A stretch of 64,000 nt of DNA. It comes from a virus. The stretch spans positions 1 to 64,000 of the IMG/VR virus record IMGVR_UViG_3300025929_000001. The stretch is one strand, 5' to 3'. Below the pieces are notes generated by a model. The model saw only the letters and a program-made list of their open reading frames with translations, did not search any database and was not told the origin of the DNA. The position numbers and the translations under genes were made by a program. Of this stretch, positions 18,458 to 56,584 are shown in pieces. Every line of letters starts with the position of its first letter. Position 1 is the first letter of the stretch.

Positions 18458-19606
18458 ATGGCCCAGAATACCCTTACCAACCTGATTCCATCGCTGTACG
18501 CATCGATGGACATCATCTCCCGCGAGCTGGTCGGCGCAATCCCTTGCGCAACCCTGTCCGCCGAAGTCGCCCGCGCTGCGGTCGGCCAAACGGTCTACTC
18601 GTACAACTCCAACGCGTCGGCTGCAACCGACATCACCCCAGGCGTGACCTCCCCGGACGACGGTGAGCAATCGTTCGGCAGCACCCCGCTGCAAATCACG
18701 AAGGCTCGTCGGGTTCCTTTCCGCTGGAACGGCGAGCAACAGCGCGCCCTGAACAACGGCGGCCCTGGCTACCAAGCTCTGCGCGGTTCGCAGATGGTGC
18801 AAGCAATGCGCACGCTGGTCAACGAGATGGAAGTGGACGTCGTCCGCGCTGCCTACCTGGCATCCAGCCGCGCTGTCGGCACCGCCGGTACGACCCCGTT
18901 CGCATCCGGTGTGGGCGACTCCGCTCAGCTGCGCAAAGTGCTGGATGACAACGGTTGCCCACTGGGCTCGCGTTCGGTCATCATCGACACGTCGGCCGGC
19001 GCCAACATCCGTACCAACACCCAACTGACCAAGGCCAACGAGGCTGGTACCACCATGACCCTGCGTGACGGCGAGATCGTCGACCTGCATGGCATGTCGT
19101 ATCACGAATCGGCTGCGGTGTCGCAAGTTGCCAAGGGTACGGGTACGGGCTACACGTCGAACACCGCTGGCTACGCTGCTGGCGCAACCGACATCACGTT
19201 GATCACCGGTTCGGGCACCGTCCTGGCTGGCGACATCGTGACCTTCGCTGGTGACACGAACCAGTACGTCGTCGCTGTCGGCGCTGCCGGCCCTGGCGTC
19301 ATCAGCCTGGCTGCTCCAGGCCTGCGCAAAGCCATCCCGGCTTCCGCCACCGCAATGACCATCGTCGCGAGCTCGGTTCGCAACGTGGCATTCCATCAGT
19401 CGGCACTGGTGCTGGCAACCCGCGCACCGGCCCTGCCGGAAGAAGGCGACTCCGCTGCCGACCGCATGATCATCACCGATCCGCGCTCGGGCATCAGCTT
19501 TGAAGTCTCGATGTACCCGCAATATCGCCAGATGCTGTATGAAGTGGCGATCGCTTGGGGCGTCAAAGGCATCAAGCCTGCGCACAGCGCAATCCTGCTC
19601 GGCTAA
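18458..19606 (+). CDS. Major capsid protein (P22 coat-like)
   Basis: 382 residues. The N-terminus LTNLIPSLYASMDIISRELVGAIP, the segment QITKARRVPFRWNGEQQRAL and the insertion-domain stretch TGSGTVLAGDIVTFAGDTNQYVV resemble the P22 gene 5 coat family with the HK97 fold and an added I-domain. Codons are strongly biased (C at wobble positions, CTG, GTC), as expected of the most expressed late gene. AGGAAAAATC precedes the ATG. A terminator follows at once. Confidence 0.88.
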   Translation: MAQNTLTNLIPSLYASMDIISRELVGAIPCATLSAEVARAAVGQTVYSYNSNASAATDITPGVTSPDDGEQSFGSTPLQITKARRVPFRWNGEQQRALNNGGPGYQALRGSQMVQAMRTLVNEMEVDVVRAAYLASSRAVGTAGTTPFASGVGDSAQLRKVLDDNGCPLGSRSVIIDTSAGANIRTNTQLTKANEAGTTMTLRDGEIVDLHGMSYHESAAVSQVAKGTGTGYTSNTAGYAAGATDITLITGSGTVLAGDIVTFAGDTNQYVVAVGAAGPGVISLAAPGLRKAIPASATAMTIVASSVRNVAFHQSALVLATRAPALPEEGDSAADRMIITDPRSGISFEVSMYPQYRQMLYEVAIAWGVKGIKPAHSAILLG

Positions 19607-20042: not shown

Positions 20043-20222
20043 ATGGCAGTTGAAATTGGTAAACGTGCCCGGTTGATCCAGCCTGTAGTCGAAGGCGAAG
20101 TGATCGATACCGAGTACGACAAGAGCGCAAAGTCCTTGCGTCATCTGGTCGAATATACGGACGCAGCGGGCGATGTTCAAACCCGTTGGTTCACCGAAGC
20201 CCAACTGGAAGAGGTGGTCTAA
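20043..20222 (+). CDS. Small head-region hypothetical protein
   Basis: 59 residues, preceded by AAGGGGAATTGCC. A compact beta-rich sequence: GKRARLIQPVVEGEVIDTEY then SLRHLVEYTDAAGDVQTRWF then a short helix. Small proteins with this pattern (RVxLIQPVVxGxVxDxxYD ... WFxExQLE) occur after coat genes in phages and conjugative elements, perhaps SH3-like. The stop overlaps the next start (TAATG). Confidence 0.65.
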   Translation: MAVEIGKRARLIQPVVEGEVIDTEYDKSAKSLRHLVEYTDAAGDVQTRWFTEAQLEEVV

Positions 20223-20788
20223 TGGATAACCACAACGAACGCGCTCTGGCTGGCATGGCTGCTGGCGCCGGTATCGCTCGCAATGGTGGCGTGTCGGAAG
20301 ATGCCCACGCAAGCGGCTTCTATACCGTCACCTGTATCGGCCCGGACGGTAAAGAGAAGTGGGCGGACACCATCAACAATTTGGTGACAACCGTCGGCAA
20401 AAACTTCGCCCTGGATACGGTTCTGGCGGGTTCCGCCTATACCGCAGCCTGGTACCTCGGCCTGATGTCCTCGGCGTCCTACGGCGTCGGTGCTGCTGTT
20501 GGCGATACCGCAGCTTCGCACGCTGGCTGGACGGAAGATCAGAACTACTCGCAAGGTGCACGTCCGACGGCAGCTTGGTCGGCAGCGTCTGCTGGTTCCA
20601 AGGCCCTGTCGGCAGCACTGGCGTTCTCGATCAACGCAAGCACGACCATCAAAGGCTGCTTCCTGATCTCGAACTCCACCAAAGGCGGCACGACCGGCAC
20701 GCTGTACTCTGCTGGCCTGTTTACCGGCGGCGACAAGGTTGTGGCTTCCGGCGACACCATCAACGTGTCCTACACCGCAACGATGTAA
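20222..20788 (+). CDS. Structural protein, probable head decoration or minor capsid protein
   Basis: 188 residues, with the coat-like codon bias that marks a strongly expressed gene. The sequence WADTINNLVTTVGKNFALD, AAWYLGLMSS, then TGTLYSAGLFTGGDKVVASGDTINVSYTA is a beta-rich pattern often found just after the coat protein in phage head operons. A decoration or minor capsid role is inferred from position and expression signs. No ribosome binding site precedes it, so it is coupled to the previous gene. Confidence 0.65.
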   Translation: MDNHNERALAGMAAGAGIARNGGVSEDAHASGFYTVTCIGPDGKEKWADTINNLVTTVGKNFALDTVLAGSAYTAAWYLGLMSSASYGVGAAVGDTAASHAGWTEDQNYSQGARPTAAWSAASAGSKALSAALAFSINASTTIKGCFLISNSTKGGTTGTLYSAGLFTGGDKVVASGDTINVSYTATM

Positions 20789-20800: not shown

Positions 20801-21256
20801 ATGACACCCGATCAGCAATCTGCACTTGAATCCCTTGTTGGTCGGGTGCTATCTTCCGACGAAGTAGCGCTGCTGGATCAATATCTTCCCACTCGCAATG
20901 ACGTAGAGATCGCAAACATTTTGTCTGTCGGTCGCATTAGGGTCGATAGCAAACAAATCGGCATAGGCACCATTTTGATGGCCCTTAGCCCGCATGGCGG
21001 AATATTCTTAGATCAGTTGGTTGAATTGGGTCAAACGGACCGCAATGTTTATTGGTCGTTTGAATTAATCCGAGCTGGTACCTTTGATATCGGTTTACCG
21101 GGCACTCGTGAACAGTTGATCGAGTTGAAAAACGAATTTCCAGCGGTAGGCCCTGCGCTCGACATACTCATGAAGACCGCTGAATCTCCCGACCCAATAC
21201 CGTATGGTGCGGTATCCGACGCACTTAATATTGCTGAAAGGCAGATGACATTATGA
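20801..21256 (+). CDS. Hypothetical protein in the head module
   Basis: 151 residues, preceded by AGGAGCG. Helical, with an N-terminal segment DQQSALESLVGRVLSSDEVALLDQYLPTRNDVEIANILSVGR seen in phage proteins of unknown function located near head genes. It ends in ATGA overlapping the next gene. Possibly an internal or chaperone protein for the neighbour, inferred only from place. Confidence 0.6.
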   Translation: MTPDQQSALESLVGRVLSSDEVALLDQYLPTRNDVEIANILSVGRIRVDSKQIGIGTILMALSPHGGIFLDQLVELGQTDRNVYWSFELIRAGTFDIGLPGTREQLIELKNEFPAVGPALDILMKTAESPDPIPYGAVSDALNIAERQMTL

Positions 21257-21699
21257 GCGGCGAAACTATCGTAGTCTTTGGCTCAACGGTTAAAACGCTC
21301 GCGTCCAGTGGCGCAGCTATCGCCAATAACGCCATTGGACAAGCTGCTACTGCTAACTATGGTGTTATAGCAGATGGCGGCGGATATCCGGATGCAGACT
21401 TCGTGCTGACAGGATCGTTTGCGACCGCGCCAACAGAGAATACCGTCCTGGGCCTTTATGCTCGTCCATTGGACATTGACGGTACGCTCGATACAGATGT
21501 GCCTGAAACTACTCGGCCGACGTTGTTTATCGGTAGCTTCGTATTGAACAACGTCACTACCGCACAGACCCTATTGCTCACGGCGCGAGATTTGCCTCGT
21601 TTAGCTGACTACTACGTCCATAACAACGGATCTGGTCAAACGTTAGCTGCGGGTTGGACCTTGAAGGCTACCCCTCGCTCATACAGCGTTGCTGTCTAA
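21253..21699 (+). CDS. Structural-region hypothetical protein
   Basis: 148 residues, beta-rich, with Thr/Ser/Gly/Asn-rich strands (ADFVLTGSFATAPTENTVLGLYARPLDIDG; LFIGSFVLNNVTTAQTLLLTA). The pattern resembles small virion beta-sandwich proteins encoded before large surface or fibre proteins. No defined family was recognised. Confidence 0.6.
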   Translation: MSGETIVVFGSTVKTLASSGAAIANNAIGQAATANYGVIADGGGYPDADFVLTGSFATAPTENTVLGLYARPLDIDGTLDTDVPETTRPTLFIGSFVLNNVTTAQTLLLTARDLPRLADYYVHNNGSGQTLAAGWTLKATPRSYSVAV

Positions 21700-21720: not shown

Positions 21721-24700
21721 ATGACCAAGGCTGCATTGCCGAGGAGAGTTGCTACCTCTCTGCCCCAAGAAACATCTAAGCCTGCCCGATTTACTGCACC
21801 GATGCGATTTGCAGCGGCTGCAAATCGGATGATTCCTCGCGATCTGTCTGGTAATAATTTCCATGCATTACCCGGCGGCAGTGTATCTCTTGTGCCCGCA
21901 CTGTACAACGGCGTCGGCTTACAATCATGGTTGCCAGGCGCTGGCGGCAGTGGGTCGATTCCCCTAACTGCATCTGCTTTGAGGTACGATTCTCCAATTA
22001 CAATGTTGGCGATTGTCAAGCCACCGTCAACCAGCACTTTCAACATTAGAACTTCAAGTACTACAGGGTCGCCCTTAATTTGGCAATTGAGCTCTACTGG
22101 ACTTCAGACCTTAACAATCTCAGGTGTTGGTAGTAAAGGGAGCACAGTCACGGCAATCCCTTTAGGGTCGTTCACTGCTATTATTTGTCAGTACACTCCC
22201 GGAACTACTGGCGGCACAAAATTCTATTTCCCGGGCACTACTCAAACGGTCGCGGGTAGTACGGGTAATGCTACAACTGGCACCGGTCCGGTGATATCTG
22301 GTGGCGGTACGGGTGCGGGACAGTGCGCACTCTATGTAGAATGGGATGGGATCTTAACTGACGCCGAATGTAGAGCGTTGCTGACAAATCCGTTCTCTGC
22401 CTTCGAATCTAACGCGCCCTACAGTAACCGTTCAAGGCTGCAAGTCAGGACTTCACCGGTTCGATACGTGCGGGATAGCGCTAACGGCTCGGATGTTGAT
22501 CCTGGTGTGTTCTGGTCTGAAATACAAGCGTTCGACGTTAACGGCGTAGCCCTTGCGAATTCGGCGAGTCAGTACACGTTCAGCCAAGCTGTTGATACAA
22601 GTTCTGTTGCAAATATACCCTATCTATATGACGGGTTGATGAACACGAACGGAGTGATTATCTCCGGCGCCGGCGTTCATACCGCTACTCTTGATCTAGG
22701 GTCAATCGTCCAAGTCTCAAAGGTGCGCATCGGTCACTACCCGACGGCCACCTTCCACAACACAAAGACGGAAATATCACCAGATGGTCAGACTTGGTAC
22801 ACGCTGTATGATTCAACTGTCTCTGGTGAGTATGTAGAAACAACCTCAGGCAAGAATTATCTGCCGCCAAGCTATACCTACACGGCACCCGTCGCATCGA
22901 CGCCGCCTACACTTCGCACGGACTGGTTCAACGCTACTGAATCGACGAACCTTAGTGTGGTCACGTCGACCACTGCACACGACGTCCTGATTGCTTACGC
23001 AGCTAGCGATAATAACAACACGAACTTTACATTTCCGTCAGGATTTACCGCACTACAACAGCTTCATCCGACATATGATGCCAGCGTACTGAACGTAGGC
23101 ATCAAGCAGGATGCATCTGGTAGTGAAGGTACGTTAACACTCACATCCCCTGATGCAATTATCGGTGGCGTATTAGCGTTCTCAAATGTTGACAACGTAA
23201 CGTCGTTGGACGTTGCGGCCCAGGGCGTGCTTGGTTCTGGTGGACCAGATTTTACCGCAACAGCGTCCCTAACCACCGTCACGAATGGCTGTCTGCTGGT
23301 CGCTATTGTAGACGAGGACGTAGCAAACCCGGTAAGTGTTACTTCAACTACGGTCGCTAGTTCTCCTGCGCTGACTTGGACTAAAGTTCGTCACATCAAC
23401 AATGGCGCATACGCAAACGTCAGCGTATTCACCGCTACCCAGACGACCAAGGGGGCCATATCCGTCACGTCAACATCGACGGGTTATACTGGTCAGTCTG
23501 GCATTGTGCTGCTGGCTTTGCGTCCAGCGACCACTGCTGCGGCTGGAACCACGTACCCCGTTAGTATCACTGAAGCTGTAACCGCATCGGACACCAATGT
23601 AAGTAACGGATCGTTGCCAGTAACTCTTTCAGAAGCTGCGGTTGCTGCCGACAGTCTCAGTGCTATTAAGACCGCCCCGGCTAGCATCTCCGAAGCTGGA
23701 ACTGCGGCCAACACCGCTACAGCATCGACGGTCGCACCTGTCACAATCTCCGAAGCTGCGACTGCTGCGGATAGCTCTGTTGTTATCAAAACTGCACCCG
23801 CTAGCATCTCCGAATCTGCAACTGCTGCTGAAAGCTCGACGCGCACCACTGTAAGTCCGACCGCAATCTCTGAGCCCGCAACTGCCGCAGACGCTGTTGC
23901 AACGACGAACGTTAGTGTGGTCAACAGCGCTGAAGCCGTAACTGCTGCGGAAGGTTCTGACGCGCTTGTCGTACGTGCAGTTAGCATAGCTGAATCTGCA
24001 ACTGCTTCCGACTCGTCGACTAACACGGTAGTTCTGGGCGTGCCTGTTACTGCACAGCTCTGTTATTTAGAGATTGATTGGGATACCCATGATCTCGGTA
24101 TCTATCCGGGTCGTATTAACGCTATTCGTCTGTTGGACGCACAGGGTAACAATCTACTCATCGGCGCAACTTGGAATAGCAATCTTGCCAATGGCGGAGA
24201 AAAAAGCACATATACGGATGGTAACAACATATATCTCGTTGATGAAAATCCGAGCACGTATGCTGACTTATCTTCATATGGCAACGCAGGCGCTAGTGAC
24301 TATATAGGTTGGAGTTTTGAGAATTCACCATACCTGACTGAGGACGGCTATGTCGACGCTGTCGCATTGGAGATCGATTGGTCGCCTGCGCCTGGTGACT
24401 CTCGTATCCCTAACTTTTACATTTATGGTTATCCCCTTGAGGGCAGCGACTTCCTTGAGATCAACGCCTATACTCCGGACAATTTTGCTAACGGCTTGAC
24501 CCATATTGATTTACCACAAATCACGGACATACCTAAGCCTGCTGTCAGGGGTAAGTCTCTGCGGTTAGAATTTTCTGGTTTAGAAGTTCCGTCCAATGGT
24601 GCTGCAAGTCTGCAGATATTTTGGCTGTACGGCACAGACCGAGTAAATGAGCCTGTTTTTTCAAACAGAACCTCTGGCGGATCAACAACGAATCAGGTTA

Positions 24701-27213
24701 CATACTCGTTAATCAAAGGCTCTATTGCGCCCGACCATGATTACGGTTATACGTCTGGGGTAATGCCTTTAACCAACATCAATCTTGGCTATGACATAGT
24801 TCACAATACATCCTTCTTTGCGGCAATAATGCCCGACCCAGAGGGGAATGCAACAATTCAAGTCGATACGGTTGGCGGGCTTCTGTATAGGCCTATCTCG
24901 TTTAACGTCCAAGCCGTAACCGTAAATCAAGCCGCGACTGGTCAAGCGCAGCTTGCAAGTCTGAAGTTCTTTATAACTTATGACGGTATCCATTATCATC
25001 AGCAATATTACACCGACACGTATGAGATATTAACTCCGCAAGAGCCTGCATATCTCGTTAATGGTAACTTTAGTAATGACTTTCTGGTAACGCCATTTGC
25101 CGAAGAGACAATTACAGGCACAATCTACGCAGTAGGTGTGTCTGAGAACGCTGGCGCTTATGATGACGCAGTCGTATCCGCACAATTGCCGGTCACAGGC
25201 GCTGAAGCGGGTAGCTTGGTTGACGCCGCAACTGCGTCTAGTGTCTTGCTGGTGGTCACTAACGAGTCTGCAACTGCTAGCGAATCGGAAACTGCTGCGG
25301 CGTCTAAAGGTGCTGCTATCACAGAGACTGCTACGCTAACGGACTCTGAAAGCAATACGGTTGCAGCTAGCGCAGCTATCAGCGAAGCTGGCGCTCTGTC
25401 TGACTCCGAAAATAGCACTGCTGTCAAGGGTGCTGCAATCTCCGAAGCGGGTACGCTCGCTGACGCTGAAACTGTGACGTTGGTTGCGGTTAGTGTGGTC
25501 AGCGAACCCCTTACCGGTAGCGATGCAAGCACTGTGCAGATGCAGAACCTTGCAAGCGTCAGCGAAGCTGGTAGCGCAAACGACCAGTCTGCAACGGGTG
25601 CGAACGCTGTGGCGGTTGCTGCTAGCGAGTCCGCAACGCCTGCGGATAGCTCCAGCGTAGCTGCTATCGACGCAGCCTCAGTTAGCGAGTCGGGTTCACT
25701 GGTGGATGCACCAAGCGTAACCGCGTCGTTCGTATCTGCAACGACGGAATCCGCTACGTCCGTTGATTCGCAAACGGTAAGCGGCGTGCGTCCTGCATCA
25801 ACGTCGGAAGCTGCTACCGCCTCTGACAGCAACACTGCTGGAACTGCTACGTCTGCAAGCAACTCGGAGTCGGGTTCTGCTGCTGACACAACCGTTGCAG
25901 CAAAAACGACCAACAGCGCAATCTCGGAACCGTTGACTGCAAGCGACACCGAGTCTGTGAGTGCTGTGGTGGTGGCTGCAAACACGGAGTCCGGTGCTGC
26001 AAGCGATGCGCTGACCGTAACCGCTATCAACTTGGTCGCTGTTAGCGAACCTTTGTCTGCAAGCGAGTCAGTCACGCTGCTGGCTGCTGGCACTGTAACC
26101 ATCACAGAAACGGTCGCACTGGTAGAAGCTACGAGCGTTAATGTCGCGGGTACTGCTGCTATCACTGAAGCTGGTGGCGCTGCGGATGCGCCTGTTGGAC
26201 TTAGAACTACCAACGCGGCAGCTAGCGAGGCTGTAACGCCGTCTGATAGCGAATCCGTATCCGCTATTATGGTTGCTACGGAAACGGAACCCGCAACCGC
26301 GAGCGAAAGTTCCAGCCTTACGCAAGCTACTACCGCGAGCACAACCGAAGCTCTTGCTGCTGACCACACTCAGGTTCTTCTTGCTGCGGGTACGGTCACA
26401 GTTGTTGAGGTCTTGAACGCTGCTGAAGCGCCAACGGCTGCTGCAACTGTCAACAGCGCAGTGACCGAATCCGGTAATCCCGCGGAGTCTGTTGCTGCTA
26501 CCGCAGTCATGCCAGCCAACACCACGGAGCCGGCAAGCGCCGCGGAACAAGTTGCGCAAGGCAGTGTGGTCAACGGGAATACGTCGGAAGCTGCTGCGCC
26601 AACGGACGCTAGTGCGCCTACATTATCCAGCACGCGCAACGTGACGGAATCCGCAAACGCCCTGGAGTCGGTCAGCAATACGGCCGCGCTAGGTGTCAGC
26701 GTCGCAGAAGCTGCAATTAGCTCCGATACATTGGTTGTGTCTGCGCAGTACCTTGTGGCGCAGGCGGAAGCTGCAACGCTCGCAGATGCAGCAATTGGTG
26801 GATACAACACCAACGCGATAGTCTTGAACCCTGCAACTGCTGGTGACAGTGTTGATGGTCAGAAGATAAATGACGCGGGTGCTGCTATCACAGAAACACT
26901 GGTGCCTAGCGAGCAGTCTGTAACCCGTTTGGATTATGGTGTAAATGTCACGGAAGTTGTAGACAGCGATAGCGATGCAAGTGTGCAGATGATCTATGTT
27001 GTGTCACAGACAGAACTTGCATCGTTGCGTGAAAGCGTGTATGTTTACTTCCTAACGGAACACAAGCAATATCCGCTCGCAGGTAAGTCAAGTGCATTCC
27101 CGTCAGCATCTAAAGCAACCAGCTATCCGCTTAACGGCCAGTCCATTGTGTACCCGTCAAGCTCTAAGGCAAGAAATTATCCACTGTACGGTAAAAATAG
27201 GAGCTACCCATGA
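21721..27213 (+). CDS. Giant repetitive virion surface protein
   Basis: 1830 residues. The N-terminal part (to about residue 610) has a LamG/concanavalin-like section ending ALYVEWDGILTDAECRALL, then a discoidin-like beta segment. Residues 613-772 hold eight 20-residue repeats, about 773-1136 a separate beta region, and 1137 to about 1777 thirty-two more repeats. The repeat consensus has S/T-E at positions 5-6 and D/E at 12 (for example PASISEAGTAANTATASTVA). The last 50 residues carry an 18-residue repeat of the type YPLxGxSxxFPSxSKAxx. Acidic, Ala/Ser/Thr-rich repeats fit an elongated head fibre or adhesin. Location between head and neck genes is unusual for a tail fibre. Confidence 0.75.
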   Translation: MTKAALPRRVATSLPQETSKPARFTAPMRFAAAANRMIPRDLSGNNFHALPGGSVSLVPALYNGVGLQSWLPGAGGSGSIPLTASALRYDSPITMLAIVKPPSTSTFNIRTSSTTGSPLIWQLSSTGLQTLTISGVGSKGSTVTAIPLGSFTAIICQYTPGTTGGTKFYFPGTTQTVAGSTGNATTGTGPVISGGGTGAGQCALYVEWDGILTDAECRALLTNPFSAFESNAPYSNRSRLQVRTSPVRYVRDSANGSDVDPGVFWSEIQAFDVNGVALANSASQYTFSQAVDTSSVANIPYLYDGLMNTNGVIISGAGVHTATLDLGSIVQVSKVRIGHYPTATFHNTKTEISPDGQTWYTLYDSTVSGEYVETTSGKNYLPPSYTYTAPVASTPPTLRTDWFNATESTNLSVVTSTTAHDVLIAYAASDNNNTNFTFPSGFTALQQLHPTYDASVLNVGIKQDASGSEGTLTLTSPDAIIGGVLAFSNVDNVTSLDVAAQGVLGSGGPDFTATASLTTVTNGCLLVAIVDEDVANPVSVTSTTVASSPALTWTKVRHINNGAYANVSVFTATQTTKGAISVTSTSTGYTGQSGIVLLALRPATTAAAGTTYPVSITEAVTASDTNVSNGSLPVTLSEAAVAADSLSAIKTAPASISEAGTAANTATASTVAPVTISEAATAADSSVVIKTAPASISESATAAESSTRTTVSPTAISEPATAADAVATTNVSVVNSAEAVTAAEGSDALVVRAVSIAESATASDSSTNTVVLGVPVTAQLCYLEIDWDTHDLGIYPGRINAIRLLDAQGNNLLIGATWNSNLANGGEKSTYTDGNNIYLVDENPSTYADLSSYGNAGASDYIGWSFENSPYLTEDGYVDAVALEIDWSPAPGDSRIPNFYIYGYPLEGSDFLEINAYTPDNFANGLTHIDLPQITDIPKPAVRGKSLRLEFSGLEVPSNGAASLQIFWLYGTDRVNEPVFSNRTSGGSTTNQVTYSLIKGSIAPDHDYGYTSGVMPLTNINLGYDIVHNTSFFAAIMPDPEGNATIQVDTVGGLLYRPISFNVQAVTVNQAATGQAQLASLKFFITYDGIHYHQQYYTDTYEILTPQEPAYLVNGNFSNDFLVTPFAEETITGTIYAVGVSENAGAYDDAVVSAQLPVTGAEAGSLVDAATASSVLLVVTNESATASESETAAASKGAAITETATLTDSESNTVAASAAISEAGALSDSENSTAVKGAAISEAGTLADAETVTLVAVSVVSEPLTGSDASTVQMQNLASVSEAGSANDQSATGANAVAVAASESATPADSSSVAAIDAASVSESGSLVDAPSVTASFVSATTESATSVDSQTVSGVRPASTSEAATASDSNTAGTATSASNSESGSAADTTVAAKTTNSAISEPLTASDTESVSAVVVAANTESGAASDALTVTAINLVAVSEPLSASESVTLLAAGTVTITETVALVEATSVNVAGTAAITEAGGAADAPVGLRTTNAAASEAVTPSDSESVSAIMVATETEPATASESSSLTQATTASTTEALAADHTQVLLAAGTVTVVEVLNAAEAPTAAATVNSAVTESGNPAESVAATAVMPANTTEPASAAEQVAQGSVVNGNTSEAAAPTDASAPTLSSTRNVTESANALESVSNTAALGVSVAEAAISSDTLVVSAQYLVAQAEAATLADAAIGGYNTNAIVLNPATAGDSVDGQKINDAGAAITETLVPSEQSVTRLDYGVNVTEVVDSDSDASVQMIYVVSQTELASLRESVYVYFLTEHKQYPLAGKSSAFPSASKATSYPLNGQSIVYPSSSKARNYPLYGKNRSYP
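23557..24036 (+). repeat. Block of eight 60-base coding repeats
   Basis: Eight degenerate units of 60 bases (20 residues) each, in frame in the giant surface protein. Each unit has the ISEAxTAADS-type core. Units differ by many substitutions, so the duplication is old or under selection for protein shape. Confidence 0.85.
25129..27053 (+). repeat. Block of thirty-two 60-base coding repeats
   Basis: About 32 further units of the same 20-residue repeat, two of them one or more residues longer. They are separated from the first block by a non-repetitive domain of about 364 residues. Together the two blocks make some 40 units. Confidence 0.85.
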
Positions 27214-27773
27214 CACTCATCGTTGAAGATGGATCCAAATTACCGGATGCCGAATCTTATATCTCTGTTGACGAATGCACCGCATATCATGTTAAGCGGG
27301 GTAACACCGTTTGGGGTGATATGTCTTTGCAGGAGATGGAAGAAGCGCTTGTTCGCGCAACAGATTTCATGCGAGCCCGTTACCGAGGCAAGTGGAAAGG
27401 TCACGTTGCAACTTATGAACAGGGTTTGGATTGGCCGCGTATGGGTGTCAAGGTTACTGACGGGATATTGGCTAGTGGCCCTTATCCGTATGTGACTGCA
27501 TATCGTCGGCCTTACTTGCCTCCACAGATATTGCCGGATAACGTCATTCCGAAAGAAGTAAAGAACGCTTGCGCTGAGCTAGCATTCCGCGCTGCCCAAG
27601 GCCCGTTGATCATTGATGAAACCAGGCAACCAATCCGTGAGACTGTTGGCCCCATCACTGTTCAATATAGCGAGTACACATCGCAGCAAGTGTCCTATCC
27701 AATGATTGACGATATGTTGCGACCTTTCTTGACCACCGGAGGCAATAGTAGCGTCAAGCTGACCCGCGTTTAA
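27210..27773 (+). CDS. Head-tail connector (DnaT-like family)
   Basis: 187 residues. MTLIVEDGSKLPDAESYISVDECTAYHVKRGN, EEALVRATDFMRARYRGKWKG and PKEVKNACAELAFRAAQGPL are the conserved blocks of the phage protein family labelled putative DnaT-like; members act as head-completion adaptor proteins. It begins the neck module and starts on an ATGA with the giant protein. Confidence 0.82.
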   Translation: MTLIVEDGSKLPDAESYISVDECTAYHVKRGNTVWGDMSLQEMEEALVRATDFMRARYRGKWKGHVATYEQGLDWPRMGVKVTDGILASGPYPYVTAYRRPYLPPQILPDNVIPKEVKNACAELAFRAAQGPLIIDETRQPIRETVGPITVQYSEYTSQQVSYPMIDDMLRPFLTTGGNSSVKLTRV

Positions 27774-37996: not shown

Positions 37997-40900
37997 ATGG
38001 CCGACGTAATCCGCACAGTAACAGACAACGCATCATTCCAGGCAGCATGCAACACCGCGAATGGATTTGATTGCGTCGGCCAAGCGGCTAACTTTCGCAT
38101 TCAACTCACCAACAGTTTTGTTCCAAGTGGTATCAGCGTAGGTGCTGGAACCAGTAGCGATGACTATAAAGTCATTGTCGAAGCTGCACCCGGCATGGGT
38201 CACGCAGACCTTGCGAACACCGGCGCATACAACTACGGCAATCAGGGTATCGAACTGACGCTTAACAACGACAGCGCGATTATCGCTCATTCTGGTGTGT
38301 GGTTTCACAACCTCCGTATTACCTCCAATGCATATCACGGCTTTCTTGCGCAGAGCGGTGGCAATGGCGTATTACCACGCATCAACGAATGTAAGGTACG
38401 CTGTGAAGCATACGGCGCTATCGGTATCCAAGCATACCAGTCTCTTGAAGTCTACTCCTCATTGTTTGTGCGTAGCTCGACAAGCGGTGGCCCGCTGATC
38501 GACGGCTCCTGGAGCTTGACCGCATTCTTCAGCACGTTCGTACTCCTGCCAGGCGCTACCGCAGAGAAAGCGCACTCGGGCGGATGGGGCGGTCAGTACT
38601 CTGTCTTGATCGACAACCTGTATGTCGGTTTTGCAAACCCTTACGACGGTTCGTTCTGGTGCGTCAACAATTACTCGAACTACGGTAGCGCGAACAACTG
38701 CACAGTCGTATCCAACATTGTTGTTGATACGAGCAACGACTTCCGCGCAGGCTCCAGCGTCCGTGGCCTGGGTACTAGCGAGATGATATCCACGCTGGAC
38801 GGTCGCGGTAACAATCGCGGCAACTTCCCTGATCCAGGCGCAGTGATGTACAATCCGGCAGAAGCTGCTGCGATCCCAACCATCACCAGTCAAACATTTT
38901 CGAACGGTACGCTGACACTCAGCGGCACCTATACCAACAACGCCACGGGCGGATTGCTCGTTGTCGATCCTCTGTACCGGACTGCGGGCGTACCGCGTCA
39001 ACAAACCAGCAGCATCTCGATCAACTCCGGTAACAAGACGTTCTCAGTTACGCTGTCCGGTATGCCGCGTGAGATTTACCGCGTCCCCGTTATGCGGCTG
39101 TCGAACACTGGTGGCCTTGGCCCTAAAGCGACCGTCGGCGTCAGTGCAATCACGAACTACGTTGCGCTCGGTGCAAACCCAACTCCTCCGCCTACCATCC
39201 TGCAACCGAACCGGTGGCAGCCGGCATGGAGCAGCAGCACAAACCTCGGCGACCGCAAAGTCGAACATCGCCGCAACGGTCAAGTCCTTGCAACCTACGG
39301 TGAACTTGGCGATCTGCTCGGGCCCGACCAACGTTACGGCGGCACGCAGTTCCCACTCTTGCCAGGTGACGAAATTCTGGTCTACCCTGCACGCTATTAC
39401 AAAGCCGTCTGGTTCGGCATGCCTAGCGGTGGCGCTGGCGGTAATTCGTCAAGCCCGCTGACCGGTGTTACAGTTCGCGGTCTAACCATTAACGGCGAGC
39501 GTCCTGTTATCTGGTGGAAGTACCTTGACGGGACGGAAGGTCAATACGGTTACGCCAAAGGTAACGGCGCGATCTACGGTACGGGTGTCGTCTATGTAGG
39601 CTACACCGGCGACGGTTGTGTGTGGGATAACATTGACATTATCGACGTCGATGGTTGGACGGGTAAGTCGTTGCTGTACATCAACAACGGCGTTGAAGGC
39701 ATGGTTACGTTCAAGAACATGCGTGTTATGGGTGCTATCATTAGCGGTCATAACGGCATCCTGTCTGCGCATGGTACCCGTTGCGGTCTGACGTTTGAGA
39801 ACGTGGAAACTGCATACCTTGGCGGCGGTGCGACAACCCCTCCGGACATCAACGAAGCACTTGCGCATGGCTACTATATCACGCGTCACGAGCCTAACGC
39901 TCAAGGCGTGTACCCGCAAATTAACTTCAAAGGTTGTTACTTCCATCACGGCTGGTACGGTCACTTGCTGAAGGTTCGTAACCCGCAACTGACGGTTGAA
40001 GGCTGCTATTTCATGGGCGTCAACTCCAAAGCGTTTGGCGACTCGCTGACCCCAGACTTCTGGCGCATGCCTCAGTCGGGTGCAGCACCTTCTGTTAACG
40101 ACTCCGCAGAAGTTTCAAACCTGGATATGCCGAACGGCGGTACGCTGACGTTCATCAATAATGTGGTTGTCAAGAACTACACCGGTCGCGACGTTGGTAT
40201 ATTCTGCCTGAATTGGGGTGCTGAATCAAACATCGGTTGGAGCGGTGGCGAAGCTGGCGTCGACGGTAAAATTACCATCGAGAACAATACGTTTGTGGCC
40301 ATGTCGAACAAGGTGCGGGTTGAAGGCAGTAGCGGTAGCGCTGTCCCTCCGGTTCCCTTGGGCTTCTCCAATGGCCAAGACCATCCCACCAGTGATACAT
40401 GGCCACATGACCGCGTGCCTGTATCCATCCGGAACAACGTGTACGCGGGCTTCGTCGACGAAAGCTGGAAAGAACCAAGCGCACAAATCCTCACCATCGA
40501 CCAAATTAACCTGCCGGGTCGTGATAGCGGTGTGCCGTTCTCGCCGAAGGTCACGCAAGGTTCGATTGGTACTAATGGCGGTCAAGGTCGTCCGATGTAC
40601 GCTCACCGCACGTCCTGGGCTACTCGTACCGACACAAACAAGGGCGGTGTTGGCGACTTCCAAAGCACGCTGTCTGCTACGGGTAACGGTACCGGCCAAC
40701 TGCCGATGATAACCCCATTCCGCAACACAGATGCTCAAGCACTGTCAGGCGGTCAGAATGGCGCAGTGGCTTATCCGCTGCAATACGAATGGTCTGTAAC
40801 CGGTTCGTCTGCGGTGACTGTGAACAGCGGCACTGCTGGCGCTCAAGCTGACGAAGTTGTCCCATCTGGTAGCAGTGGCGGTACGGGTGGAACCGGCGGC

Positions 40901-43900
40901 GGTGGAACCACACCTCCTGATACGGGTGGCGGCACCACGGGCGCTCCAACAAACACGACGCAAGCGTCCGGAGCACCGGTCAACTTTACGGCTGCTAAAT
41001 TGTGGTCATTTGACACCGATACGCAAGGTTGGGTCATGGAGGGTTACGGCTCTCCGTCCGGCGGCCCTAACGTGTTCGACGTGCAGATGGGTACGCTGCG
41101 GGTCTTCCCGAACTACGCAGATAACGTTATCAAGTCGCCAGGTAGCTTGGGCGTGAATGGTGCCGCCAATCCTAAAGTGCAAGTTAGCGTCAAACGCGTC
41201 AACGGTAGCACATGGGAAGGCGGTTTGCGCTGGATCACTACTACCGACAGCAATTGGGACGACGTCAAGTATAAGCAGGTCAACAATACCATCAATTCGT
41301 CGGGTTACACGACGTTGGATTGGGACATGTCGACCATGACCAACTGGACGGGCGGCACCATTAGCCAGATTCGTCTTGACCTTGGCGTGTCACTGGACGA
41401 CGAATTCTTTGTTGACTGGATTGCTATTGGTGCAGCAGCCGCATCCGGTGGCGGAACAAATCCTCCAGGCAGCACTACGGGCACTGTCACCGTCGACCGC
41501 ACCAATGCGCTAGGCGCGAAGGTTATTGCCTTCTACCCTCTGAATGGTTCAGACGGTGAGATTGTTTCAGGTCTGCCTCTGACACTGGTTGCTGGTACTT
41601 ACGTCACGGACGCAACATACGGCAAGGTGCTCCAAGGTTCCACAGACCAAGTTGGCGCTACTATCAATCTTGACCTTAGCACTAAGAACCAGATCTCGTT
41701 CTCATTCCGTGCTAAAAACATAGGTGAGAAAGACATCTTCCAGCATGGCGGAAACTGGCAGCTCAACGAAAACGGTGGCGCAATTATGGTTTCCGGTAAC
41801 TTCGGAGGCGAATACATTGCTGGTGTCAACCATGGACGTAACGGATACGCGGGAACCGGCTTCCCACATCCTGGCGTAGACAGTGCTGCATGGAACTACC
41901 ACATCATTACCCTCGATAACACCAATAAACCTGAACCGTTTGCGACTTGGATGGTCAACGGTACCGAGCTGACCGAATGGAATAGCTTTGGTACTAGCGG
42001 CACATCGTTTAAATCCGGTCTGCTGGAAATCATGAAAACCAGCGGCGGTCAAATACAAAACCTAACGTTCTTTGACGGTATCCTATCATCAGCTGAACGT
42101 ACATCGCTCAACACAAACCCGTCACAGTATTACAAGGTCAATGTTACTAATCCGGGTGGCGGCACCGGTGGCGGAACGGGCGGTAGCGGCACTGTCACAA
42201 TCAATACGAGCAACGCGCTCGGTGCGAAGGTGCTTAAGTACTTCCCGTTCAATGGTGTCGACGGTGAGATCATTAGCGGTAACTCGCTTAACGTGAACAG
42301 TAACGGTCTGTTTATTACGGACTCGACTTACGGTAAAGCGCTCCAGCTCAATGGCGCTGGCCCTGCTGCGACCGTGAACGTCGACCTTAGCGGTCACAAT
42401 ACCATCACGCTCGCCTTCCGCGCAAAGAACATCACCAATGCTAGCCTTATCCAGCACGTTGGTGATCCGTACAATGCAAACTATACGACGGAGCATGGCT
42501 TCTTGGTTCGCGGTCGTGATACAGAGATTAACAACACGAACTTCTTTGTTACGAATCATGGTAGCGGTTGGTCTGCAACCCATTTCAACTACGACTACCG
42601 CAATCTGGACGATACCGGCTGGCATTACCATATTGTCACTCTTATCAACACCTTGGAAGGCGTGCCTCATGGAACGTGGTACACAGACGGCGTAGCTAAT
42701 ACCGTCAACGGCGGCTATGGTTCCGCTGGCTACAAGTTCATCAACGGTTTGATGTCCTTCTTGCTGACTGGTGGTGCAGCAATCCAAAACCTTGCAATCT
42801 TTGCAGACACACTCACGTCCGCAGAGATCACCAGCCTTAGCAACAACCCGGCACAACTGGTCAACGTCGCAACTACGGAAGGCCCGGGCTTCAGCATCTC
42901 GAGCGCGGTCATCCCTGATAACGCACGTAACACGATCGTCTTGCAACTTGGTGCTAGTCTGGACACGACGCACGCTGCGCCAGCTTTCAGCCAGTGGTCA
43001 ATCACTAACCACACAGTGACGTCCTACACCTACCCGAACGGCGCAAACAGCTTCATCGTAACGCTGATTATGAACTCGGAGTTTGCATACGGTGATGTGG
43101 TCAAGCTCAGCTACACGCGACCAACCGCTCCAGCGGGTTTCGCAACGACCGGTAACAGCTATCTGGTTAACACGACGAACTTCTCGGTTACAAACGCTAT
43201 CGCAGCGCCGGCAGTTGGTGAAGGTGCAGCAATCAGCGTCGTAAGCGCAACCATCACCAACGCTAACACGAACGCAATTGTGGTCGTGCTCAGCGGTAAT
43301 ATTGATACGTCGCATGCTGCTCCGCCTTTCGGTCAGTGGATTCTAACAGGTCGCACCGTCACCGGTTACAGCTATCCAAATGGTACTAGCGGTAACACAG
43401 TCCAACTGACGGTTAGCGGCGCTGCATTCGCCTATGGTGATGTAGTCACCTTGGGATATACGCGTCCGAGTGCTCCGGTCGGCTTTGCGGCTGCGGGTAA
43501 CAGTTATCTGGCGTCGTTCAGCAACCTTGCAGTGACGAATAGCATTCCGTCCGGTAGCGGTACGTCCGAAGGCACACCAATTACCATTCTCAGCGCAACG
43601 GTGAACAACTCGTCGCCTGGTTCTGTGTCCGTGGTGCTAAGCGACTTCCTGGACCGTTCGCACGCTGACCCTGCTTATGGTCAATGGGCCGTGACTGGCC
43701 ATAGCGTTACCGCATACGAGTTCGACCAGACCAACGCCAACAAGCTCAACTTGGTTCTAAACTCGCCTGTTGTGTACGGTACAACTCTGTCGCTCGGCTA
43801 CACCAGGCCTACAGCGCCCGCAGGCTTTGCTGCGTCGGGCAATCGGTACCTGTCGACCTTTTCGGGTTTGAGCATCACCAATAACGTTGCCTACGTCTAT

Positions 43901-45451
43901 GTACCGTCGGATATTCCTAAGGGTATCTCCGCTTTTGTCATGGCTACACCAAGCACGAACCCTGTGCCTACAGGTTTTGTGTTCGCGCAAAGCTATCAAG
44001 ACTGGTTGACGTCAGACAACGCTGCACGCTGCTTGCTGGTCGAAGTCTCGGTACTGGATAGCGGTGGCAATCCGCAAACGATCTTCCTGTCCAGCACTGG
44101 TTACGTCACGAGCCCAACCGACAGCCCTGCTAACGTCCACTATCTGCCAGTGGTGTCCAATGGCGTTAGCTTCTCGGAGAAGTTGGCAGTTGACTCCGCA
44201 CAACTGTCTTACGGTGACATCGAGCTCGACAATAGCTCCGCTGAGCTCGACCCATACCTGTCGTATGTGTGGGCAAACAAAGCAATTAAGATTTACTCCG
44301 GTGACGTGCGTTGGTCGCGTTCGCAGTTCCAGCTGATCTTTACGGGCTTGGTCGAGAATATCGACAGCAGTTCGCGCACTACGCTGAATCTGAAGCTGCG
44401 TGACAAAATGCAGCAACTGAACACGCCGCTGACCGATGTCAAGGTAGGCGGTACGTCGCAGTTTAAAGACTCACTGATACCATTGGTGTTCGGCGAAGTA
44501 CACAACATGACGCCGGTTCTGGTCGACGCAGCATTGCACACCTACCAGTTCCATCAACGTCGTGCAAACTATGTAATCGAAGTTCGCGACAATGGTGCAC
44601 CAGTGGTTGTGACCTCTGATCCATTTATCGGCATGTTCCAGTTGTCGGGTTCGCCAGCGGGTGCGATCACTTGCAGCGTGCAAGGCGATATGCCCAATGG
44701 TGTGTGGCCAGTGACCGTTGCTAGCATCATTAAAACAATCGTCACGAGCTTTGGTAAAGCTAGCACGCGCTTGACCCTTGCAGACATCGACACCGCTAAC
44801 TTCGATGCGTTCGACGCAGCAAACCCGCAACCTGTCGGCTTCTGCGCCACAAACACCATCAACGTAATCGACGCTTGCCAGCAGCTTGCAGCGACGGTTG
44901 GCGCTCAGTTGATGTTCAACCGCCTTGGACTGCTGCAACTGGTGAAGCTGCAAATTCCGGGTCTGGGTACGCCGCAAGCAATTGGGCCAGCAGACATGTT
45001 GACGCATACGCTGCACGTTGCAGCTAGGCCTGACATCCAAGCTGCGGTGAAGCTTGGTTACTGCAAGAACTGGACTGTTCAAGCTAACCTGCAAACCGGC
45101 ATTCTGGAAGAACACAAAGCTCGCTATGCGACCGAGTGGGACACCAAGACGGTTGTGAATTCCACGGTTGCAGCTACATACAATCTGGACGTTGAGCCTA
45201 CCCAACGCGACACAATGTTCCTGCGTTCATCTGAAGCTGAGGTCGAAGCCAACCGTCTGTTGTTCATAATGGGCGCTGCAAGAACTGTGTATGAGTTCAC
45301 CGGTTTGCCGATCTGCCAAAACCTGTATCTGGGCCAGGCGGTAACACTCACACACGGTCGGTTCGGTTTGGATACCGGAAAAGCGGGAGTTGTGGTAGGA
45401 TTAGACCCGGACTGGTTAACCGGCCGCGTTGTAGTCCAAGTCCTCATATAA
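37997..45451 (+). CDS. Tail tip hub protein fused to beta-helix and lectin-like domains
   Basis: 2484 residues, the largest product. Residues 1 to about 950 look like a right-handed beta helix (repeated short strands with Asn/Gly turns), followed by Gly/Pro linkers (about 955-985), a beta-sandwich (about 995-1150), two LamG-like domains (about 1165-1375 and 1400-1625) and three ~105-residue repeats (1632-1968) with HAAPPFGQW and YTRPTAPAGFA. The last 515 residues (LAVDSAQLSYGDIELDNSSAELDPYL, then LKLRDKMQQLNTPL, FGEVHNMTPVLVD) match the central hub protein of many proteobacterial siphophages. It should bind the host surface and carry the tip. Confidence 0.8.
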   Translation: MADVIRTVTDNASFQAACNTANGFDCVGQAANFRIQLTNSFVPSGISVGAGTSSDDYKVIVEAAPGMGHADLANTGAYNYGNQGIELTLNNDSAIIAHSGVWFHNLRITSNAYHGFLAQSGGNGVLPRINECKVRCEAYGAIGIQAYQSLEVYSSLFVRSSTSGGPLIDGSWSLTAFFSTFVLLPGATAEKAHSGGWGGQYSVLIDNLYVGFANPYDGSFWCVNNYSNYGSANNCTVVSNIVVDTSNDFRAGSSVRGLGTSEMISTLDGRGNNRGNFPDPGAVMYNPAEAAAIPTITSQTFSNGTLTLSGTYTNNATGGLLVVDPLYRTAGVPRQQTSSISINSGNKTFSVTLSGMPREIYRVPVMRLSNTGGLGPKATVGVSAITNYVALGANPTPPPTILQPNRWQPAWSSSTNLGDRKVEHRRNGQVLATYGELGDLLGPDQRYGGTQFPLLPGDEILVYPARYYKAVWFGMPSGGAGGNSSSPLTGVTVRGLTINGERPVIWWKYLDGTEGQYGYAKGNGAIYGTGVVYVGYTGDGCVWDNIDIIDVDGWTGKSLLYINNGVEGMVTFKNMRVMGAIISGHNGILSAHGTRCGLTFENVETAYLGGGATTPPDINEALAHGYYITRHEPNAQGVYPQINFKGCYFHHGWYGHLLKVRNPQLTVEGCYFMGVNSKAFGDSLTPDFWRMPQSGAAPSVNDSAEVSNLDMPNGGTLTFINNVVVKNYTGRDVGIFCLNWGAESNIGWSGGEAGVDGKITIENNTFVAMSNKVRVEGSSGSAVPPVPLGFSNGQDHPTSDTWPHDRVPVSIRNNVYAGFVDESWKEPSAQILTIDQINLPGRDSGVPFSPKVTQGSIGTNGGQGRPMYAHRTSWATRTDTNKGGVGDFQSTLSATGNGTGQLPMITPFRNTDAQALSGGQNGAVAYPLQYEWSVTGSSAVTVNSGTAGAQADEVVPSGSSGGTGGTGGGGTTPPDTGGGTTGAPTNTTQASGAPVNFTAAKLWSFDTDTQGWVMEGYGSPSGGPNVFDVQMGTLRVFPNYADNVIKSPGSLGVNGAANPKVQVSVKRVNGSTWEGGLRWITTTDSNWDDVKYKQVNNTINSSGYTTLDWDMSTMTNWTGGTISQIRLDLGVSLDDEFFVDWIAIGAAAASGGGTNPPGSTTGTVTVDRTNALGAKVIAFYPLNGSDGEIVSGLPLTLVAGTYVTDATYGKVLQGSTDQVGATINLDLSTKNQISFSFRAKNIGEKDIFQHGGNWQLNENGGAIMVSGNFGGEYIAGVNHGRNGYAGTGFPHPGVDSAAWNYHIITLDNTNKPEPFATWMVNGTELTEWNSFGTSGTSFKSGLLEIMKTSGGQIQNLTFFDGILSSAERTSLNTNPSQYYKVNVTNPGGGTGGGTGGSGTVTINTSNALGAKVLKYFPFNGVDGEIISGNSLNVNSNGLFITDSTYGKALQLNGAGPAATVNVDLSGHNTITLAFRAKNITNASLIQHVGDPYNANYTTEHGFLVRGRDTEINNTNFFVTNHGSGWSATHFNYDYRNLDDTGWHYHIVTLINTLEGVPHGTWYTDGVANTVNGGYGSAGYKFINGLMSFLLTGGAAIQNLAIFADTLTSAEITSLSNNPAQLVNVATTEGPGFSISSAVIPDNARNTIVLQLGASLDTTHAAPAFSQWSITNHTVTSYTYPNGANSFIVTLIMNSEFAYGDVVKLSYTRPTAPAGFATTGNSYLVNTTNFSVTNAIAAPAVGEGAAISVVSATITNANTNAIVVVLSGNIDTSHAAPPFGQWILTGRTVTGYSYPNGTSGNTVQLTVSGAAFAYGDVVTLGYTRPSAPVGFAAAGNSYLASFSNLAVTNSIPSGSGTSEGTPITILSATVNNSSPGSVSVVLSDFLDRSHADPAYGQWAVTGHSVTAYEFDQTNANKLNLVLNSPVVYGTTLSLGYTRPTAPAGFAASGNRYLSTFSGLSITNNVAYVYVPSDIPKGISAFVMATPSTNPVPTGFVFAQSYQDWLTSDNAARCLLVEVSVLDSGGNPQTIFLSSTGYVTSPTDSPANVHYLPVVSNGVSFSEKLAVDSAQLSYGDIELDNSSAELDPYLSYVWANKAIKIYSGDVRWSRSQFQLIFTGLVENIDSSSRTTLNLKLRDKMQQLNTPLTDVKVGGTSQFKDSLIPLVFGEVHNMTPVLVDAALHTYQFHQRRANYVIEVRDNGAPVVVTSDPFIGMFQLSGSPAGAITCSVQGDMPNGVWPVTVASIIKTIVTSFGKASTRLTLADIDTANFDAFDAANPQPVGFCATNTINVIDACQQLAATVGAQLMFNRLGLLQLVKLQIPGLGTPQAIGPADMLTHTLHVAARPDIQAAVKLGYCKNWTVQANLQTGILEEHKARYATEWDTKTVVNSTVAATYNLDVEPTQRDTMFLRSSEAEVEANRLLFIMGAARTVYEFTGLPICQNLYLGQAVTLTHGRFGLDTGKAGVVVGLDPDWLTGRVVVQVLI

Positions 45452-45472: not shown

Positions 45473-47806
45473 ATGAGCGCAATTATTAATGACCGCGACG
45501 TCTGGCTTGAGTCCTTCTTAAGCCGGTTCGGTGTTTCCACTGTTCAGCCCGCTTCCGGGATTGGTTCGCTGCAAGCGTCTACAACCGGCGTCAACATTGC
45601 TGCGGCTAAGAAACTGGACTTGGTCGCAACTACGCAAACATTCACGACGGCAAACGGCTCAACCGAACCGCCAGTGATTATTGTGTCGCCAACGCTGCGC
45701 AATCTGACAGGCACGCCGTCGTATAGTGTGGTCAGCGGGTCTGCTACGCTCAACGCGTCGGGCACTGGCGTACAGGTGTTCTTCAATTCAATGGGGAACA
45801 AGGTAACTATCAAGGGTCAGATTACAGACTCCGGTGTTACCTATATGGATCAGGTAACACTGGTGAAGCTTAGCAGCGGAACCGGTGTTACCACTCTCCT
45901 GACGAACGAGTACCATGCCTATCTTGCCGACACCTTTGGCAACATCTTCAATTACATGGGCGGCAGCGGCACGTTCCGGGTGTGGGACGGCACGTTCGAA
46001 GTCACCAATGCTTGCACATTCTCTGTCTTAACGAATACAAACAATCTGCTAGTAAGCATATCCAATATCGGTCAGTACGCTGTCACTGGTATGCCTAGCA
46101 ACGTGGACAATGCGACGATCACATTCCGCGCAGTCTATAAGACCGTCAACTACGACCTAACGCTCACGCTAGCAAAGCTCAAAGCGGCAGCAGGAAGTCC
46201 CGCTGATCCTACACAGTACACGGCTGGCGGATTGCGCATACCTGTCAAGGTTAGTGCGCCTATTGGTGCGAGCTCCTGGAGCAATGCGACCGCAACTTCG
46301 TTGTTCTCGTCGGTTGGTGGCCCGGTGCTAAACGACGTCGTAACCGAGTACAATAATTCCACGAACCCACCATTCCAGGAAACTCGGTTCTACGCTAACA
46401 ATACGTGGAACCTGCTGACTGCGTCCATTGACGGCAACTTGCTTGTGAACGGTACGGTCGGTGCGGATAAGATTGCTGCGGGTTCCATTACTGCTGACAA
46501 GCTAGCTATTGGCGCAATCAGTGTTAGCAATGCTCCGGGTTCGATTACCGGAACCATGATTGCGGACGGTACCATCACGACCGCTAAAATCGCAGCGAAC
46601 CAGATTACTGCTGCGCTGATCGCAGCGAATACCATCACCGCGGATAAGCTCGCGATTGGTGTGGTCAACAGCACGCTTGGCCAACCCGGTACCATTACCG
46701 GGACGATGATCGCTGACGGCACAATCACTACTGCTAAGATTGCAGCTAACTCCATTACCGCCGATCGTATCGCGGTTGGTGTTATTCCGTCCAGTACTGT
46801 AGGTCAACCGGGTTCGATTACTGGTACCATGATCGCCAATGGTACGATCCTCACTGCTAACATCGGCGCGAACCAAATTACGTCAGCGCTGATCGCAGCG
46901 GGTACGATCACAGCAGATCGCATTGCAGTAGGTGTGATCCCAAGCAGCAACGTCGGACAGCCTGGTTCCATCACCGGTACCATGATTGCCGATGGGACGA
47001 TTACCACTGCCAAGATTGCAGCGAACCAAATAACCGCAGATAAAATCTCGGTTGGTAGCCTTGGTGCGATCTCTGCCAACATTGGCACTGTGACCTCTGG
47101 TTTCATCAAGGGTAATGTAATTGTCGGCGGTCCTGGATACACCACTACAAACTATCAATGGCCTGGAGATCAAGGAAATGGTGGATCTGCTGGCGGCTTC
47201 CATCTGAGCCCTGCCGGCCTTTTGATGGGCAATCCTAGCAGCGGCAGATATGTACAGATAACCGAGGGCGGTAATATCTACTGCCCGAACTTTAGCATTG
47301 TGAACGGCTCAGTCGGCATCAACGGTAACGGTTCTTTCTCCGGCAACGTGTACGCTTACGACGGTTATTTTGCTGGCGACATCTCCGCTTCACGCGGTAA
47401 TATTTCGGGTACTGCGTATATTGCTGACGCTAGTATTCTAAACGCAAAGATCGGCAACCTGCAAGTCGATACAATTAAGATTGCAAATTCATCTGTTTCC
47501 AATATCTTAGGCTTTGGTGCAATCAACGTAGATGAATTTTGGGCGTACTACTTTGATGTCCCGGGAGATACGTTTGCAGCAATTCTAGTTTCATTTTATT
47601 CGAATACAACGGACTACTTTGGGAATACGCTGGTTCAGTACGTCAGTGACGGTGGCGATAACCATGTCTTGAATAACTCAGGTAGCGGCTCGTTTACGCA
47701 ACTGGCTTTCGTGCCGCCTGGACGGTATTATATTCGTATGCGGTCACAAGGTTACGCCACGTACCATCAGGAAAGCCTGACGCAAGTGATTATCTTAAAG
47801 AAATAG
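45473..47806 (+). CDS. Tail fibre / tip protein with helical ladder repeats
   Basis: 777 residues. The N-terminal 320 residues are beta-rich domains that should attach to the tip. Residues about 325-540 carry four copies of a 40-50 residue repeat with SITGTMIADGTITTAKIAAN and ITADRIAVGVI, a ladder pattern typical of trimeric fibre shafts. The C-terminal 230 residues are Gly/Asn-rich and end in an aromatic receptor-type tip (VPPGRYYIRMRSQGYATYHQ). Probably host-range determining. Confidence 0.8.
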   Translation: MSAIINDRDVWLESFLSRFGVSTVQPASGIGSLQASTTGVNIAAAKKLDLVATTQTFTTANGSTEPPVIIVSPTLRNLTGTPSYSVVSGSATLNASGTGVQVFFNSMGNKVTIKGQITDSGVTYMDQVTLVKLSSGTGVTTLLTNEYHAYLADTFGNIFNYMGGSGTFRVWDGTFEVTNACTFSVLTNTNNLLVSISNIGQYAVTGMPSNVDNATITFRAVYKTVNYDLTLTLAKLKAAAGSPADPTQYTAGGLRIPVKVSAPIGASSWSNATATSLFSSVGGPVLNDVVTEYNNSTNPPFQETRFYANNTWNLLTASIDGNLLVNGTVGADKIAAGSITADKLAIGAISVSNAPGSITGTMIADGTITTAKIAANQITAALIAANTITADKLAIGVVNSTLGQPGTITGTMIADGTITTAKIAANSITADRIAVGVIPSSTVGQPGSITGTMIANGTILTANIGANQITSALIAAGTITADRIAVGVIPSSNVGQPGSITGTMIADGTITTAKIAANQITADKISVGSLGAISANIGTVTSGFIKGNVIVGGPGYTTTNYQWPGDQGNGGSAGGFHLSPAGLLMGNPSSGRYVQITEGGNIYCPNFSIVNGSVGINGNGSFSGNVYAYDGYFAGDISASRGNISGTAYIADASILNAKIGNLQVDTIKIANSSVSNILGFGAINVDEFWAYYFDVPGDTFAAILVSFYSNTTDYFGNTLVQYVSDGGDNHVLNNSGSGSFTQLAFVPPGRYYIRMRSQGYATYHQESLTQVIILKK

Positions 47807-55712: not shown

Positions 55713-55728
55713 GGATTAGTTCCTGATA

Positions 55729-56405: not shown

Positions 56406-56584
56406 CAGTCTTGGTAGCACGTTTGAGGCGCACGCGCCAGATCGAAGGCGGCTCGCGTGTAGCCGACGATGTCGAACTCAATATGCTTATTTTCTGCATC
56501 CTTGTCAGCAGGTACAAACTTGACAAATTGCATTTTAAGCGTCGTGATTTCATCCAGGGTTAGGTCGCGTACCATCTTCATCAT
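56405..56584 (-). CDS. Small hypothetical protein
   Basis: 59 residues. Minus-strand GGGAG just before the ATG fixes the start. Helix then beta (LTLDEITTLKMQFVKFVPADKDAENKHIEFDIVGYT). A longer frame to 56608 lacks a ribosome binding site. No family recognised. Confidence 0.5.
   Translation of the reverse strand: MMKMVRDLTLDEITTLKMQFVKFVPADKDAENKHIEFDIVGYTRAAFDLARAPQTCYQD

Follow-up and report, generated by a model that had tools for sequence, protein, structure and literature searches.

Carbohydrate-binding decoration proteins and fibres on phage heads are already known. According to the review PMC7602432, the decoration proteins Hoc (T4), pb10 (T5), gp12 (SPP1) and phi29 gp8.5 bind surface carbohydrates, and gp8.5 is an alpha-helical coiled-coil fibre. 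The protein considered here is encoded by an ATG-initiated open reading frame of 1830 residues (21721-27213, + strand) in a window of 64 kb, the whole stretch analysed, out of a 95,417-base virus record. It resembles Hoc, pb10 and gp12 in its dispensable-type head-region gene, its modular, putatively adhesive domains and a proposed concentration of the phage on surfaces. However, it lacks the Hoc architecture and has an array of 20-residue repeats, and its C-terminal tail of nine-residue repeats (nonamers) is not described for Hoc, pb10 or gp12 in the available part of the same source. The papers searched for this motif, or for repeats of nine residues in general, likewise contained no description of such a tail. 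The likeness to phi29 gp8.5, a head fibre that is not needed for infectivity, lies in being a candidate long head-region fibre; in contrast to gp8.5, the window protein has predicted strands, and no relatedness between the two was detected.

Two further comparisons concern position and domain content. The Rhizobium phages P106B and X2_24 have the same slot between a P22-type coat gene and the neck genes, with coats 52-54% identical, but their slot proteins are of the SGNH-hydrolase/esterase type (L003:7797-10661 and L288:10985-12283), and that of P106B has neither a repeat array nor a nonamer tail. F5/8C proteins such as those of Bacillus phage BSTP12 and Listeria phage P100 share a discoidin-like domain with the window protein (by BLAST, 32-51% identity with baseplate/minor tail proteins of Bacillus and Listeria phages), but these are tail or baseplate proteins by annotation, and the repeats and nonamer tail are unmatched in them.

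Gene order of the locus

The structural genes run from small terminase, large terminase, portal (DUF4055), scaffold and P22-type coat through three small genes to the 1830-residue ORF, followed by Ad1 (DnaT_2 family), Hc1, Ne1 (neck), Tc1 (tail terminator) and the tail tube, and then by chaperones, the tape measure (2178 aa), a 2484-aa protein and a tail-tip fibre, an order that indicates a long-tailed siphovirus type. The major capsid protein (18458-19606, +) is of the P22-coat type (PF11651, 3.6e-11; phrog_283, 2.2e-90), and the head-tail adaptor Ad1 (27210-27773, +) matches PF20557 (3.9e-43) and phrog_477 (1.2e-48). Between the coat and the 1830-residue gene lie a phrog_8123 protein of unknown function (20186-20788, +), with homologues at the same slot in L008 and L088, and two small slot genes: one (20801-21256, +) is 51% identical to a homologue that immediately precedes the tail-motif gene of L110, and the other, directly upstream of the large ORF (21253-21699, +), is 65% identical to its L110 homologue. 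The stop codon of the 1830-residue ORF overlaps the Ad1 start (ATGA), and a Shine-Dalgarno-like AGGAG for Ad1 sits within its final codons.

An earlier note on this DNA had given the ORF with exact coordinates and length and had placed it between head and neck genes, which is borne out by the coat gene upstream and Ad1 downstream. The gene is sited after the coat gene, as is characteristic of the head module, and precedes Ad1, whereas a tail fibre or spike gene is looked for in or after the tail-tip module. A separate tail-tip/straight-fibre protein is encoded about 18 kb away (45473-47806, +; PF24168 PB4_spike, 3.7e-12; PF09327 Phage_Tail_Tip, 1.7e-5), so that the 1830-residue protein is not the phage's only fibre. 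The note's view of a head/neck slot, not a tail fibre, is supported by the gene order, by this separate gene and by about 20 other phages that carry tail-motif genes at the same slot; gene position thus favours the head or collar over a tail fibre.

Elsewhere in the window, the 2484-residue protein after the tape measure gene (37997-45451) has a weak SWM_repeat match as its sole match, and thymidylate synthase is encoded at 510-1454 (PF00303, 9.3e-85). The - strand carries, at 52919-57896, a DNA polymerase (phrog_1252, weakly similar to DNA polymerase II) and a polymerase processivity factor (phrog_947), with a DnaJ-like protein at 52919-53617, and, at 58731-63910, an apparent 7-deazaguanine DNA-modification set comprising a queuine tRNA-ribosyltransferase-like protein (phrog_887) and homologues of GTP cyclohydrolase FolE, QueD, QueC and QueE.

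Domains and repeat arrays

Residues 1-245 (21721-22455, +) gave no Pfam match on the window protein itself. An N-terminal LamG-like (concanavalin A-like) domain is suggested by the signature WDGILTDAECRALLTNPFSAFE, seen by eye, together with a Laminin_G_3 match in the family member L110 (9.3e-08). It is followed by a putative F5/8 type C (discoidin-like) domain at residues 246-400 (22456-22920, +), homologous to the L223 slot protein; its PF00754 match (E=1.5e-4, residues 316-383) scores 22.3 bits and is thus below the curated cut-off of 28.2, its backing being the BLAST identity to annotated phage proteins given above. A further domain at residues 402-604 (22924-23532, +), a beta-sandwich by appearance, has a counterpart in the slot protein of L008 (41% over 198 aa, E=7e-21). 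The non-repetitive middle region (residues 777-1155; 24049-25185, +) is without a detected relative, and neither it nor the N-terminal 246 residues retrieved relatives when used as queries against IMG/VR. A match of L087 to the middle domain was discarded as an iteration artefact, the L087 protein being a ClpP-type protease by sequence. Binding of carbohydrate by the N-terminal domains is plausible, with all domain matches in the window protein lying below curated cut-offs.

The 20-residue repeats form two blocks, of 8 units (residues 617-776; 23569-24048, +) and of about 31 units (residues 1156-1775; 25186-27045, +), the last of them degenerate. The earlier count of 8 + 32 units therefore holds for the first block, whereas about 31 units were counted in the second (27 form a strict chain when anchored on the E). 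Identity at lag 20 is 0.353 in block 1 and 0.281 in block 2, against a best value at any lag of 0.18 and 0.15 on average, and 0.236 and 0.17 at most, in 500 shuffles for which the highest value over all lags was taken; the periodicity of both blocks is far above chance. Successive units are spaced by exactly 20 residues in 7/7 steps of block 1, 25/26 of block 2 and 21/21 of L213. When 84 units from the window protein and three relatives (four phages) were pooled and placed by their E, the consensus was x-A-V-F-V-V-S-I-T-E-A-A-T-A-S-D-S-S-T-A. The spacing pointed out previously, S/T-E and then D/E six residues on, is evident in these units, with T/S before the E in 66 of 84 and D/E at +6 (position 16) in 78; the hydrophobic position 8 is I/V in 60. 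The number of units, which the note had proposed to compare, differs among relatives (about 39 in the window protein, 14 in L008 and 22-23 in L213).

With the repeat block as query, cultured phages gave no relatives. The E..D 20-residue repeats turn up in L089 and L090 as well, where the gene context is different, and so do not in themselves mark a head gene. Near those repeat proteins, too, are phrog_8123 proteins (L089:2193-2801 and L090:7339-7857), as at 20186-20788 of the window.

The C-terminal nonamer tail and its slot

The protein ends in a tail (27067-27210, +) that reads YPLAGKSSA, FPSASKATS, YPLNGQSIV, YPSSSKARN, YPLYGKNRS and a final YP. The earlier note had described a third repeat of 18 residues (YPLxGxS) here; the true unit is nine residues, Y-P-L-x-G-x-x-Q-x, and the apparent period of 18 arises because nonamers of the YPLxG and YPSxS kinds alternate in the window protein. 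Across the whole family the spacing is 9 residues 35 times, 18 seven times and 8 four times. Among 51 nonamers from 22 proteins, chosen by the pattern Y/F/R-P-L/I-x-G, the last position is mostly Q/E and the residue preceding the G mostly A. BLAST relates the window tail to those of L167, L151 and L146 (E=4e-8, 9e-7 and 5e-6), the remaining parts of the protein being without a match. The copies differ by synonymous codon changes, and selection therefore appears to act at the protein level.

When 2.9 million viral contigs were scanned, without regard to location, for DNA coding for two nonamers in a row, 17 tail genes with readable downstream sequence emerged, and all 17 end between -3 and +13 nt from Ad1. 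Sixteen lie at -3 to +10 nt (L093, L096, L099, L110, L117, L125, L140, L142, L146, L151, L155, L156, L160, L167, L170 and L178, with the same tail common to L093, L125, L156 and L170), and the seventeenth, L105, at +13 nt. Leftover matches had no Ad1 on the fragment and were mostly a short HYPLQGLFLIYPLRG ORF, besides L176, which is cut by the contig end. Matches of the HYPLQGLFLIYPLRG type were excluded as short ORFs in bacterial-looking DNA with no Ad1 nearby; this frame recurs in L106, L112, L126, L128, L149, L166, L171, L188 and L190, and the motif mimic is probably a dispersed DNA element.

With searches that started from coat and from Ad1 included, the distinct tail proteins number about 22, and all members come from metagenomic contigs. 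These proteins have in common only the nonamer tail and the gene position, and the window gene has both, C-terminal YPLxGxxQx repeats and a gene end beside Ad1. Exceptions to strict adjacency are L088, with a 66-nt gap, and L008, with two genes between. Fragments that include a coat gene all have one of the same P22 type.

Of 3039 distinct C-termini scanned for a period of nine residues, whatever the sequence, 17 passed, and most of these are YPL tails. In L223, L015 and L238 a different nonamer (YTVPAENRT-like) is carried by genes of the same slot, which a gene of about 110 residues separates from Ad1. A Gordonia phage match to this ENRT type was dropped, as it sits at the gene start and not at the C-terminus. 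A third kind of nonamer (RVVSFEGTG, RVISFDGTN, RTIPFN) closes a 69-residue ORF of L207 (8270-8479) that precedes a short YPL-tail ORF and Ad1. A tblastn search for the tail in 50,697 phage records, with the low-complexity filter on, gave no convincing match, and the strict nonamer pattern found five stretches in 84,980 genomes, none of them the C-terminal repeat tail of a long ORF. Nonamer patterns are insensitive, missing the window protein, L008, L088, L059 and L019 alike, so this absence from genomes and cultured phages is no proof.

Among relatives, the distance from coat to Ad1 is anything between 49 bp and 8.4 kb, a variation that marks the contents of the slot as accessory; the slot measures only 49-301 bp in L014, L023 and L032, whose coats are 58-66% identical. 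The N-termini of the family vary from LamG-, discoidin- or Ig-like to almost none, with lectin-like or adhesive matches to Laminin_G_3, F5_F8_type_C (two members), BNR_2 and Ig_3. L213, L019, L040 and L178 retain the array and tail behind an N-terminal domain of only ~18-55 residues, so what stays constant and resembles an attachment element is the tail and not the N-terminus. Between the two lie arrays of repeats 20-24 residues long, with sequences unrelated between types: a 20-residue unit of the E..D type (window, L008, L088 and L213) or of the LTGNSASATQGALTP type (L059, L099, L105 and L142), a 22-residue unit of the GNASATGLxASV type (L040, L178 and L140) or of the HHELTA type (L019 and L110), and a 24-residue unit in L160. 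The array of L110 differs in type from that of the window, although its two upstream genes are those 51% and 65% identical to the window's, which suggests module exchange between relatives. The conserved tail, the most telling feature, and the carbohydrate-binding-like N-terminal half had both escaped the earlier note.

Possible roles of the protein

Because about 20 other uncultivated phages carry the tail motif at the corresponding gene position, the window protein probably serves as an accessory fibre of the head or collar. The more detailed picture of an accessory, surface-exposed head- or collar-borne adhesin with docking C-terminal nonamers, a beta-rich spacer and glycan-binding N-terminal domains is one that we hold with slightly more belief than doubt. 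For this protein we infer presence and location in the virion, docking via the tail, a beta-rod fold, and glycan binding with its ligand. Exchangeable modules would build one surface-exposed accessory virion protein, in which the tail (YPLxGxxQx repeated) may dock onto the head or neck, the 20-residue repeats may form a regular beta-rich spacer and set the reach, and the LamG-like, discoidin-like and related N-terminal domains may bind glycans on cells, mucus or particles.

Attachment could be confined to the neck, as a collar whisker present in 6 or 12 copies and held by Ad1 or by some other ring protein of the neck, instead of head-wide decoration. The 17/17 tail genes ending beside Ad1 point that way, as does the frequent ATGA overlap of the tail gene with Ad1, which suggests coupled translation; yet such adjacency is also expected if the gene simply comes last in a slot whose contents are exchanged and whose border is formed by conserved neck genes, and the gap in L088 and the two intervening genes in L008 also speak against a whisker, which we hold to be less likely than not. 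Classic tail fibres attach by the N-terminus, with the C-terminus distal, and many phage fibres are trimeric, with folding elements conserved at the C-terminus. The conserved C-terminus could accordingly be a distal tip or an intramolecular chaperone or trimerisation element, with attachment elsewhere or in an ordinary receptor-binding fibre. Low confidence in the monomer models is compatible with an obligate oligomer, but members have no N-terminal part in common, some being almost without one, and the gene lies outside the tail module of a phage that has a tail-tip fibre gene; we judge this reading unlikely. That the protein is absent from the virion, for instance as a released adhesin or assembly factor, is highly improbable given a gene within the structural operon and the fusion of lectin-like and fibre-like modules.

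Disorder bears on the spacer. AlphaFold2 modelled residues 1576-1830 (11-row alignment) as all-beta without helix, with two predicted strands per 20-residue unit in register with the units, at a mean pLDDT of only 46.6; L178, with 22-residue units, likewise gave strands only (pLDDT 42.6), and Foldseek found no match at E<=0.001, an outcome that the low confidence of the model makes uninterpretable. Both models are too weak to name a fold, and a monomer prediction may fail for a trimer. The regular rod or solenoid suggested by the earlier note finds weak support in the regular all-beta model. The low pLDDT values, and Ser/Thr/Ala-rich units with little identity among them, would suit intrinsically disordered spacers in place of a folded rod. 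However, a unit length fixed at 20 with almost no indels (25/26 and 21/21 steps), the D/E kept six residues after the E, the hydrophobic I/V at position 8 and the in-register strands make disorder rather unlikely.

With the head- or collar-borne adhesin as the preferred reading, a wider proposal can be made, to which we give a little less than even credence: the YPLxG tail and its ENRT-type counterpart would act as a docking tag that can pass from protein to protein, the hallmark of a so far undescribed class of head/collar fibres in siphoviruses with P22-type coats, in which rods of 20-24-residue units and adhesive heads are swapped. Provided that the tail does act in docking, it would be the sequence signature of an entire class of accessory phage fibres that current annotation misses, their common part being the last 20-50 residues alone. 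It would also be a short portable peptide with which to display proteins on the head or neck of a phage, and would allow a clear test of surface-adhesin exchange by recombination at a conserved 3' end. The swapping of unrelated repeats at near-constant unit length is in itself a useful case for the study of repeat-protein evolution.
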